Shown piece after piece: positions 47,577 through 49,771 of a DNA stretch of 64,000 nt. Origin of the DNA: Pseudomonas oryzihabitans (lineage in GTDB: Bacteria; Pseudomonadota; Gammaproteobacteria; Pseudomonadales; Pseudomonadaceae); the NCBI RefSeq assembly GCF_024652905.1, contig NZ_CP102428.1:2554501-2618500 (forward strand). Direction: 5' to 3'. Within the stretch, counting starts at the first letter, position 1; each line of letters begins with the position of its first letter. The notes beneath the pieces are model-generated. The model saw only the letters and a program-made list of their open reading frames with translations. It was not told where the DNA came from and ran no database searches. The translations under genes and the position numbers were made by a program.

Positions 47577-47640
47577 TCCTGCGGAACCGCCGGGTCGGCG
47601 CTCCCCTCAAAGTCGAACATCCCCTGCCGAGAGCGCTGCC

Positions 47641-47778
47641 ATGAGCGAAGACACCCGCGATCAGGAACCCCTGGACACCCCCGCCGACGGCGACGACGTC
47701 CCCGAGCACCAGAAGCCGGAAAACCTGGAGAAGCTCAAGGATTACGGCAAGGATCAGATTCCGCCCGGCATCGCCTGA
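47641..47778 (+). CDS. small acidic protein of unknown function
   Basis: A 45-codon frame encodes MSEDTRDQEPLDTPADGDDV, then PEHQKPENLEKLKDYGKDQI and ends PPGIA. It is strongly acidic in the first half and mixed-charge in the second, with no membrane or signal segment, so probably disordered. The ribosome site is weak (GAGAG eleven bases upstream). It lies 64 bases after the MATE gene. I recognise no family. Natural amino-acid composition for a stress-type small protein and an ATG-to-TGA frame support it, but it could be spurious. Confidence 0.5.
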   Translation: MSEDTRDQEPLDTPADGDDVPEHQKPENLEKLKDYGKDQIPPGIA

Positions 47779-47898
47779 CGCCAACCCTGAACCCCTCGAC
47801 AAAAGCCGTCGACAGCGGTGGCAAAGCCCCGGCGGAGCTTCTAGCATCCGTCGGGTTGAGTGGGCCCCAGGGCCTTCGTGAAGGGAATCCAGATCACC

Positions 47899-48444
47899 AT
47901 GACCGTCAGGTCCTACCTGTCGCCTTTCCTTGCGCCCTTATTGGCGCTGCTGGTGCTGTTCCCGGCGCCGGCCCAAGCCGTGGATGGCTATGCGGGCATC
48001 GCCTTCGGCACTGACCAGAAAACCTTTCTGGCGAAAAAGCTCTGCACCTTCCAGCCGCGCAAGATCGACGTGGTCGGCGTCGAGTATTTCGAATGCAACG
48101 ACCTCGCCTTCGCCGGTGAAAAAGTCGAGGCCGGTGCCTTCTTCATCGATGGTCGCTTCCTGCGGCTGTCCATCGTCACGCCCCTGGCCCAGTCCTTTCT
48201 GATCGCCGAAGGCCTCACCCAGAAGTATGGCAAGCCCTCCTCCCAGTCATCGGCCGCCGCCTTCGAACGCCTGAACCAGGATGACGACGCCCAGGCCTAT
48301 CTGGCCTTCGATCACGACACCGTGGTCTACAAGTTCAGCGCCCAGGCGGCACGTCGGAAACAGGTCCTGCTGATCTACACCTCGCCACGTTACGAACCCC
48401 TGCTCAAGGAGCGGCAGTTGCAGTTCGTCAAAGACTCGCTTTAA
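47899..48444 (+). CDS. secreted hypothetical protein
   Basis: This 181-residue protein has a clear signal peptide ending APAQA (LLALLVLFPAPAQAVDGYAG). The mature part is about 150 residues with two cysteines (KLCTFQPRK and FECNDLAF) that could form a disulfide. The N-terminal IAFGTDQKTF and the later LTQKYGKPSS pattern resemble small periplasmic proteins that compare a computed allele-like beta sheet, but I cannot name a family. I start at 47899 because the signal peptide begins there. No functional clue comes from its neighbours. Confidence 0.75.
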   Translation: MTVRSYLSPFLAPLLALLVLFPAPAQAVDGYAGIAFGTDQKTFLAKKLCTFQPRKIDVVGVEYFECNDLAFAGEKVEAGAFFIDGRFLRLSIVTPLAQSFLIAEGLTQKYGKPSSQSSAAAFERLNQDDDAQAYLAFDHDTVVYKFSAQAARRKQVLLIYTSPRYEPLLKERQLQFVKDSL

Positions 48445-48448
48445 ACAT

Positions 48449-48585
48449 CCGGTTACAGCTCGTCGGACAGTTGTCCCTCAGGCGGCCAAAGTGTCGCCCC
48501 GTTCACGCCTGGCCGGAAACAAGCCATGAACAATGGCAGATAGCCATGGTCAGAACGCGGGCAAGGAGCCCCTTCCTGTAACCGG
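48449..48585 (+). other. candidate structured RNA closed by a 10-bp stem
   Basis: CCGGTTACAG (48449-48458) is the exact reverse complement of CTGTAACCGG (48576-48585). Between them lie local hairpins: GGAC-AGTT-GTCC (about 48465-48476), AGGCG with CGCCT (about 48480-48510), and GCCAT-GAACA-ATGGC (about 48523-48537). This gives a multibranch form like a riboswitch or leader RNA, 36 bases before a 37-codon frame. It matches no riboswitch consensus that I know. A pair of terminal inverted repeats of a tiny mobile element is the alternative, but no target duplication is visible. Confidence 0.4.
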
Positions 48586-48620
48586 CTACTTACGGACGTC
48601 GTTCCTTCGGGAGTCCTACC

Positions 48621-48734
48621 ATGACCGAACCTGTCGCGATGCGCGCTCTGGCGCCGCAGCGTTCCTGCTTTCGTTTGCCCCCAGCGCTTGGCTTCAGCGG
48701 CACAGGTTCTCCTTTGAAAAGGATCATTCAATGA
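48621..48734 (+). CDS. 37-residue upstream frame coupled to the acyltransferase
   Basis: A 37-codon frame starts MTEPVAMRALAPQRS and ends SPLKRIIQ. GGGAG lies seven bases before its ATG, a very good ribosome site. Its TGA overlaps the acyltransferase ATG (ATGA), as expected of a translationally coupled leader. GAACCTGT (48627-48634), at its start, pairs exactly with ACAGGTTC (48702-48709), just before the acyltransferase ribosome site, so translation of the leader could open that structure. The peptide has no recognisable family; it could be a regulatory leader or chance. Confidence 0.45.
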   Translation: MTEPVAMRALAPQRSCFRLPPALGFSGTGSPLKRIIQ

Positions 48735-49771
48735 ACACTCGCAATCTCTGGGTCGACTATGCGAAAGCCATTGGCATCGTGCTGGTCGTCTATGGCCATG
48801 TCGTCCGCGGCCTGCTCAACGCCGGCATCCTGCAGGACGCCGAATTCCACGGCCTGGTGGACAGCGTCATCTACAGCTTCCACATGCCGCTGTTCTTCTT
48901 TCTTTCCGGCCTGTTCTTCTACAGCTCCTTCGTCAAGCGCGGCACCGGCGGCCTGTTGGTGAACAAGATCGACACCATCGTCTATCCCTTCCTGGTCTGG
49001 TCACTGTTGCAGGGCTCGGTGGAGGCGCTGATGTCGCGCTACACCAATGGCGGCGTCAGCTTCAGCGAAGTCCTGACGGTCTGGGAGCCACGCCAGCAGT
49101 TCTGGTTCCTCTATGCCCTGTTCCTGGTGTTCTGCCTGGCCATGCTCGCCTATCGCTGGGCCAAGCCGCTGGCCTTCTTTGCCGTGTTCGCCTTTGGCGC
49201 CCTGGTCTATCTGTTCCAGAACGCCGGCCCGGAAGACTTCTTCTTCACCTTCACCGCGCAGAACTTCGTGTTCTTCGCCTTCGGCGTCTGGTTCAACAAC
49301 TTCAAGCAGGCCATCGAGGAACAGGCCGGCCGGGTGATGCTGGGCTCGGGTCTGCTGTTCGTGGTGCTGGAATACTGGTTCCACGGCCTGCTGGGCCTGG
49401 TCTATACCGATCGTGGCCTGGCCACCCTGGTCCTGGCGCTGAACGGCATCGTCTTCGTCAGCGCCACCTGCATGGTGCTGGCGCAACGGCCGCTGCAGTG
49501 GGTGCTGACCCTGGGGGCGCTGTCCATGCCCATTTATGTGATGCACGTGCTGAGTGGCAGCGGTGCGCGCATCGTCCTGAGCAAGGGCCTGCACATCAAC
49601 GACGGCCTGCTGCACATCGTCGCCGGTTGCGCCTTCGGCATCCTGGTGCCCGTGGCCATCGCCAAGCTGATGGAAGCCCGTGGCATCAACGGTCTGTTCG
49701 AGGCGCCGGCGTGGATCTCCGCCCGGCGGTGGCTTCGGCCCAAAGCTGAAACCCCCCGCCCCGCCGTCTGA
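48731..49771 (+). CDS. acyltransferase family 3 membrane protein
   Basis: This 346-residue protein has about ten membrane helices and the AT3/OafA-type N-terminus LWVDYAKAIGIVLVVYGHVV, in which the R/D-x-x-K and the histidine of VYGH are the family's catalytic region. It probably O-acetylates or O-acylates an envelope polysaccharide, lipid or osmoregulated glucan. AAGGA lies seven bases before the ATG. A second possible role, modification of cellulose, is less likely since the wss genes already do this. A strong terminator follows. Confidence 0.85.
   Translation: MNTRNLWVDYAKAIGIVLVVYGHVVRGLLNAGILQDAEFHGLVDSVIYSFHMPLFFFLSGLFFYSSFVKRGTGGLLVNKIDTIVYPFLVWSLLQGSVEALMSRYTNGGVSFSEVLTVWEPRQQFWFLYALFLVFCLAMLAYRWAKPLAFFAVFAFGALVYLFQNAGPEDFFFTFTAQNFVFFAFGVWFNNFKQAIEEQAGRVMLGSGLLFVVLEYWFHGLLGLVYTDRGLATLVLALNGIVFVSATCMVLAQRPLQWVLTLGALSMPIYVMHVLSGSGARIVLSKGLHINDGLLHIVAGCAFGILVPVAIAKLMEARGINGLFEAPAWISARRWLRPKAETPRPAV

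Follow-up and report, generated by a model that had tools for sequence, protein, structure and literature searches.

A putative ECF-type promoter and a conserved leader with a small upstream frame before an acyltransferase gene in the Pseudomonas oryzihabitans group

We analysed the region upstream of a membrane acyltransferase gene in a 64,000-nucleotide stretch of the Pseudomonas oryzihabitans genome (NZ_CP102428.1), referred to below as the window. The predicted protein (346 aa) belongs to the Acyl_transf_3 family (PF01757, E 1.3e-33), and its profile gave no match to solved structures at E<=0.01. The gene is flanked on one side by a gene encoding a 188-aa protein, with its stop codon at 48444, and on the other side by converging genes encoding a glycine-zipper protein, SecF and SecD. 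The start of the 188-aa protein (47878-48444), judged by eye, looks secreted, and the protein has no Pfam or NCBIfam family. Upstream of the acyltransferase it occurs in P. luteola and P. duriflava, at about 51% identity, as well as in five P. oryzihabitans-type loci; no match turned up in the other 31 of the 38 loci compared. The genus sample consisted of 13 genomes including that of the window. The leader was matched in 10 of these genomes at 84-100% identity, and all counts out of 10 given below include our own genome. These close genomes are referred to as the P. oryzihabitans group; P. luteola and P. duriflava are among the divergent members of the genus, and the three divergent genomes match only from the acyltransferase ribosome site onward. 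The features of the region are as follows:

48528-48554, + strand: candidate ECF (AlgU/RpoE-type) promoter GAACAA-N16-TCAGA, from conservation and likeness to the consensus
48559-48571, + strand: possible hairpin GGGC-AAGGA-GCCC with GGA in the loop, at the predicted 5' end, kept in 10/10 genomes
48560-48730, + strand: predicted acyltransferase mRNA leader of about 170 nt, its start placed from the promoter position
48601-48614, + strand: UUCG-loop hairpin holding the small-frame ribosome site GGGAG, from conserved sequence and consensus fold
48621-48734, + strand: 37-codon upstream frame, its TGA and the acyltransferase ATG overlapping at 48731-48734; ATG and ribosome site in 10/10
48627-48634, + strand: 5' arm of a long-range helix, GAACCTGT, invariant in 10/10, with two further pairs at 48636-48637
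48702-48709, + strand: 3' arm of this helix, ACAGGTTC, invariant in 10/10, with two further pairs at 48700-48701
48710-48723, + strand: predicted hairpin TCCTT-TGAA-AAGGA hiding the acyltransferase ribosome site
48731-49771, + strand: membrane acyltransferase gene (Acyl_transf_3, 346 aa)

The longest ATG-started frame of the acyltransferase (48533-49771, 412 aa) begins inside the promoter candidate, and automatic annotation may pick this start. Relatives do not support it: upstream of the acyltransferase ATG the frame runs without a stop over 67 codons in six, 35 codons in three and 11 codons in one of the 10 genomes, and it is broken by indels. The N-terminal extension was accordingly rejected.

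To read the conservation of the region, 163 four-fold sites of the acyltransferase gene were used as a yardstick (mean pairwise difference 0.189 among the 10 genomes). The stretch directly downstream of the 188-aa gene (48445-48527) differed by 0.193, although short runs within it are nonetheless kept in the alignment, and the interior of the small frame (48637-48699), located between the two arms of the long-range helix, differed by 0.204, which is about the four-fold level. The mean pairwise difference was 0.020 for 48528-48554, 0.036 for 48555-48636 (73 of 82 columns invariant) and 0.013 for 48700-48731 (30 of 32 columns invariant). The sequence is nearly invariant between the -10 box and codon 5 of the small frame, and again at the acyltransferase ribosome site. 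These differences indicate selection on two blocks and support the conclusion, drawn from sequence comparison, that the leader with its small frame is under purifying selection. The start of the acyltransferase gene itself (48731-48759) is invariant in 10/10 genomes, silent sites included, which is probably part of the constraint on the initiation region.

The most upstream conserved element, GAACAA-N16-TCAGA at 48528-48554, is present in all 10 close genomes and invariant except for one T/C column. The leaders of the three divergent genomes contain GAACAA or GAACAG, followed after 16 nt by TCAGA, TCTGA or, in one genome, TCATA; relative to the start codon these sites lie at -374 to -385. The GAAC and TC..A boxes and their 16-nt spacing are kept in 13/13 genus genomes. 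The three divergent leaders were each scanned with every 27-mer of 48445-48705, with 500 dinucleotide shuffles as a control. The best match to each leader fell on the promoter candidate (at 48528, 48526 and 48528, with 23, 21 and 21 of 27 letters identical), and an equally good match was found in 0, 1 and 0 of the 500 shuffles, respectively. The divergent leaders are longer than the leader of the window and their remainder could not be aligned by eye. A promoter of the sigma-70 type was searched for in 47600-48800 and none was found. The AlgU promoter consensus, as given in portions of two published studies (PMC10651043; PMC3819740), is GAACTT-N16/17-TCtgA. The candidate agrees with it in four of six letters of the -35 box and four of five letters of the -10 box, and its spacer of 16 lies within the 16 or 17 of the consensus. 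Thus, as far as those portions describe the AlgU (sigma-22/RpoE) promoters of Pseudomonadaceae, the candidate shares with them the GAAC box, the spacing of 16 and the TC..A box, and differs in having AA for TT in the -35 box and A for t in the -10 box. The genome encodes AlgU (TIGR02939, 327.1 bits at a cut-off of 236.15); one of five RpoE-like matches in the genome exceeds the cut-off. In this genome the pattern GAACNN-N16/17-TCNGA was counted 105 times, whereas its reversed control was counted 216 times; across the 13 genus genomes there are 16 copies of the exact GAACTT/TCTGA pair versus 26 of the control. The motif is therefore not enriched, and it is conservation that carries the case for a promoter. 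The form of the element common to both clades matched only twice in 390 genomes of the order, both times in this genus. In literature on oryzihabitans and AlgU, the acyltransferase gene was not named in titles or abstract openings.

In promoters of this type the start point generally lies about 6 nt past the -10 element, and we infer a transcript start at approximately 48560. The RNA made from there would begin close to the GGGC-AAGGA-GCCC sequence at 48559-48571, which may resemble Rsm/CsrA sites. This sequence is kept in 10/10 genomes, with one neighbouring C lost in 2/10; the hairpin appears in the fold of the whole 286-nt region (48449-48734) and is absent from the consensus fold of the leader. 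The next hairpin, at 48601-48614, is invariant apart from a UUCG to UCCG loop change in one of the 10 genomes, has three inner pairs in the consensus fold, and holds the small-frame ribosome site (GGGAG, 48609-48613). This ribosome site and the small-frame ATG are invariant in 10/10, and the encoded peptide is not conserved among the 10 genomes. An ATGA stop/start overlap is found in seven genomes including our own, two of which carry cancelling +1/-1 gaps. In two genomes the small frame ends 13 nt before the acyltransferase ATG, inside the hairpin of the ribosome site, and in one (G007) it ends 46 nt before the ATG. With this one clear exception, the pattern fits selection for initiation and ribosome passage rather than for the peptide. 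A coding role for the conserved leader sequence that precedes the small frame was also considered; a one-base gap in 2/10 genomes argues against it.

Within the leader, the predicted probability of the GAACCTGT/ACAGGTTC helix at 37 C was 0.87-0.99 across the 10 genomes, and its 3' arm adjoins the fast-drifting stretch. Because the arms never vary, covariation gives no proof of this helix. The adjacent five-pair TCCTT/AAGGA hairpin has one pair that varies between U-G and C-G, and its loop-closing pair is broken in one genome. The modelled probability that AAGGA is unpaired was 0.11-0.31 at 37 C in the 10 genomes. When the small frame was held open in the model, exposure of AAGGA rose to 0.45-0.58 in eight genomes, did not rise in our own sequence (0.11) and hardly rose in G006 (0.27). 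The leader from 48560 did not fold better than shuffled sequences (z +0.42, +0.46, -0.88 and -1.08 for the four of the 10 genomes tested). Two of 52 pairs in the predicted leader fold change on both sides, both in the variable interior.

Together these observations show a real and conserved 5' region, and suggest that its first half had been misread in the preliminary description and that an ECF promoter followed by a coupled leader is most likely. In detail, an AlgU/RpoE-type ECF sigma factor would start transcription near 48560 from 48528-48554. The resulting leader of about 170 nt would hide the acyltransferase ribosome site in the small hairpin directly after the long-range helix. Ribosome loading at GGGAG (48609) would open the 48627-48634/48702-48709 helix, and the ribosome would terminate on or beside the acyltransferase start, enabling translation of the acyltransferase while the peptide itself would be irrelevant. 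The sigma factor's identity, the start site, translational coupling and any involvement of a trans-acting regulator such as RsmA are inferred, and we rate this reading, an AlgU-type promoter with coupled translation opening a sequestered site much as in the E. coli iraD leader, at about an even chance. If it is right, a so far uncharacterised membrane acyltransferase would be linked with envelope stress in the P. oryzihabitans group, and the leader would be a natural case, in another genus, of a coupled small frame opening a sequestered ribosome site. It would also illustrate how a promoter that lies within a region can pass for an RNA domain.

The preliminary description had proposed a different architecture, a two-domain RNA with a 10-bp stem closing the first domain, acting as a riboswitch or ribosome-sensing leader. 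In the ligand-sensing version, the transcript would begin upstream of 48449, fold with this stem and respond to a ligand. The sequence elements on which it was built were all recovered at their positions, namely the closing stem (an inverted repeat of CCGGTTACAG, 48449-48458, with CTGTAACCGG, 48576-48585), the 37-codon frame, the stop/start overlap and the 8-bp pairing. Read-through from the upstream gene, which could supply such a transcript, is possible; a scan found no + strand terminator. Folded by itself, the first domain of our sequence scored well (z -3.29). In the two helices together, 97.2% of cells are paired, compared to 25.6-42.8% when slid by 1-3 columns. With G-U counted, the closing stem is fully paired in five genomes. 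The other five have one mismatch, however, and no pair of this stem changes on both sides. Among the 18 named pairs of both stems no such change was found either, the 8-bp helix being invariant in 10/10, and the power of this comparison is low for sequences this close. The first domain was less stable in the three relatives tested (z -1.65, -2.49 and -1.50, so that z is known for 4/10 genomes) and their inner hairpins differ from ours; the closing stem was predicted in all three relatives when the domain was folded alone and in one of three with the whole region. The whole 286 nt fold only slightly better than shuffled sequences (z -1.09; 26 of 200 shuffles as good). Furthermore, the conserved core of the first domain is probably a promoter-like element and not an RNA domain, judging from its sequence. 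A transcript started there would therefore lack the 5' arm of this stem, and an RNA starting near 48560 would hold only the 3' arm. The region around the 5' arm (48445-48527) belongs to neither conserved block and drifts at the four-fold rate. The leader gave no Rfam match at the gathering score and none at E<=10, no sign of a ligand was seen, and no literature on P. oryzihabitans riboswitches was found. A covariance model of the 3' part only (R1; 83 columns, structure supplied by hand) was searched against 398 family genomes. It retrieved the 10 close genomes and two weak further matches (E 2.5e-4 and 0.007 per genome), both inside long open frames and taken as chance. A DNA search of the same number of family genomes yielded the 10 and one 40-nt match (E 8e-4), also taken as chance since it seems to fall where another coding frame begins. 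We therefore regard a ligand-sensing two-domain RNA as very improbable; of the proposed gating of translation, we retain the conserved leader with its small frame and an acyltransferase ribosome site that is probably sequestered.

The remaining alternatives concern single parts of the preferred reading of an ECF promoter with a coupled leader. The element at 48528-48554 could be a binding site for a regulator and not, or not only, a sigma factor site, with transcription starting elsewhere. Its spacer also holds TRGCA..T.GCCA, an imperfect inverted repeat, and spacer positions, too, are conserved between the clades; set against the exact spacing of 16 and the GAAC/TC..A boxes in all 13 genus genomes, this makes such a site rather unlikely. 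We consider it still less probable that the acyltransferase ribosome site is controlled by an RNA thermometer or a plain sequestering hairpin for which the small frame is not needed. The UCCUU/AAGGA hairpin and the largely paired state of the site in the 10 modelled genomes agree with this, but the start region of the small frame would then not need to be invariant, and exposure changed little between 20 and 45 C in the model (from 0.09 to 0.13 in our own sequence and by +0.06-0.14 in the others). Finally, RsmA/CsrA could bind conserved GGA motifs at 48565, 48594 and 48610, block the small frame and, via coupling, the acyltransferase. Such binding would complement the preferred reading and not replace it. 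The genome has two CsrA-family genes, and the GGA motifs at 48565-48567, 48594-48596 and 48610-48612, the last within the small-frame ribosome site, are invariant in 10/10. A count by eye gives four GGA in the 171 nt, however, which is near the 2.7 expected with equal bases, and most of the stretch that bears them is invariant anyway. A precedent is the iraD leader of E. coli, for which coupling with a sequestered main ribosome site and binding of CsrA at the start of the small frame (ORF27) were shown experimentally, according to a part of the published account (PMC5574718). As far as that part describes it, the iraD leader shares with ours a short upstream frame with its own ribosome site, a stop overlapping the main start (here in 7/10), a sequestered main ribosome site (here by prediction) and GGA motifs in the small-frame start region; our leader differs in gene and genus, in the absence of the overlap in three of 10 genomes and in the ECF-type promoter proposed here. 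On balance we regard Rsm control as possible but rather doubtful. The fuller proposition, that in a leader specific to the P. oryzihabitans lineage an envelope-stress sigma factor and an Rsm-type protein jointly gate the acyltransferase through a peptide-independent coupled frame, as an iraD-like switch of independent origin in Pseudomonas, is speculative and in our judgement unlikely.

Upstream regions of related acyltransferase genes were also inspected for an ECF site. In more distant relatives it is frequently lacking, which speaks against the promoter reading. Among the 38 of 80 loci examined, it was absent in 18/18 Stutzerimonas-type and 3/3 Halopseudomonas-type loci and at the P. kuykendallii and P. 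matsuisoli loci, and a looser pattern run over 30 of the 80 loci gave one TCCAA variant at -222 in P. kuykendallii. All eight P. argentinensis-type loci carry GAACC-N17-TCTGA 92-96 nt before the related acyltransferase (about 2409-2436 in L071), and its -35 box overlaps the apparent end of an upstream coding frame. These eight loci are close relatives, and their sequence lends weak support to a promoter; a comparison of these loci, each about 6 kb long, with four neighbour proteins of the window detected none of the four. At the algU locus of our own genome (L026), the algU frame stays open on its N-terminal side back to a GTG. Exactly at this start sits GAACTT-N16-TCTAG, possibly as algU's own promoter overlapping the extension.
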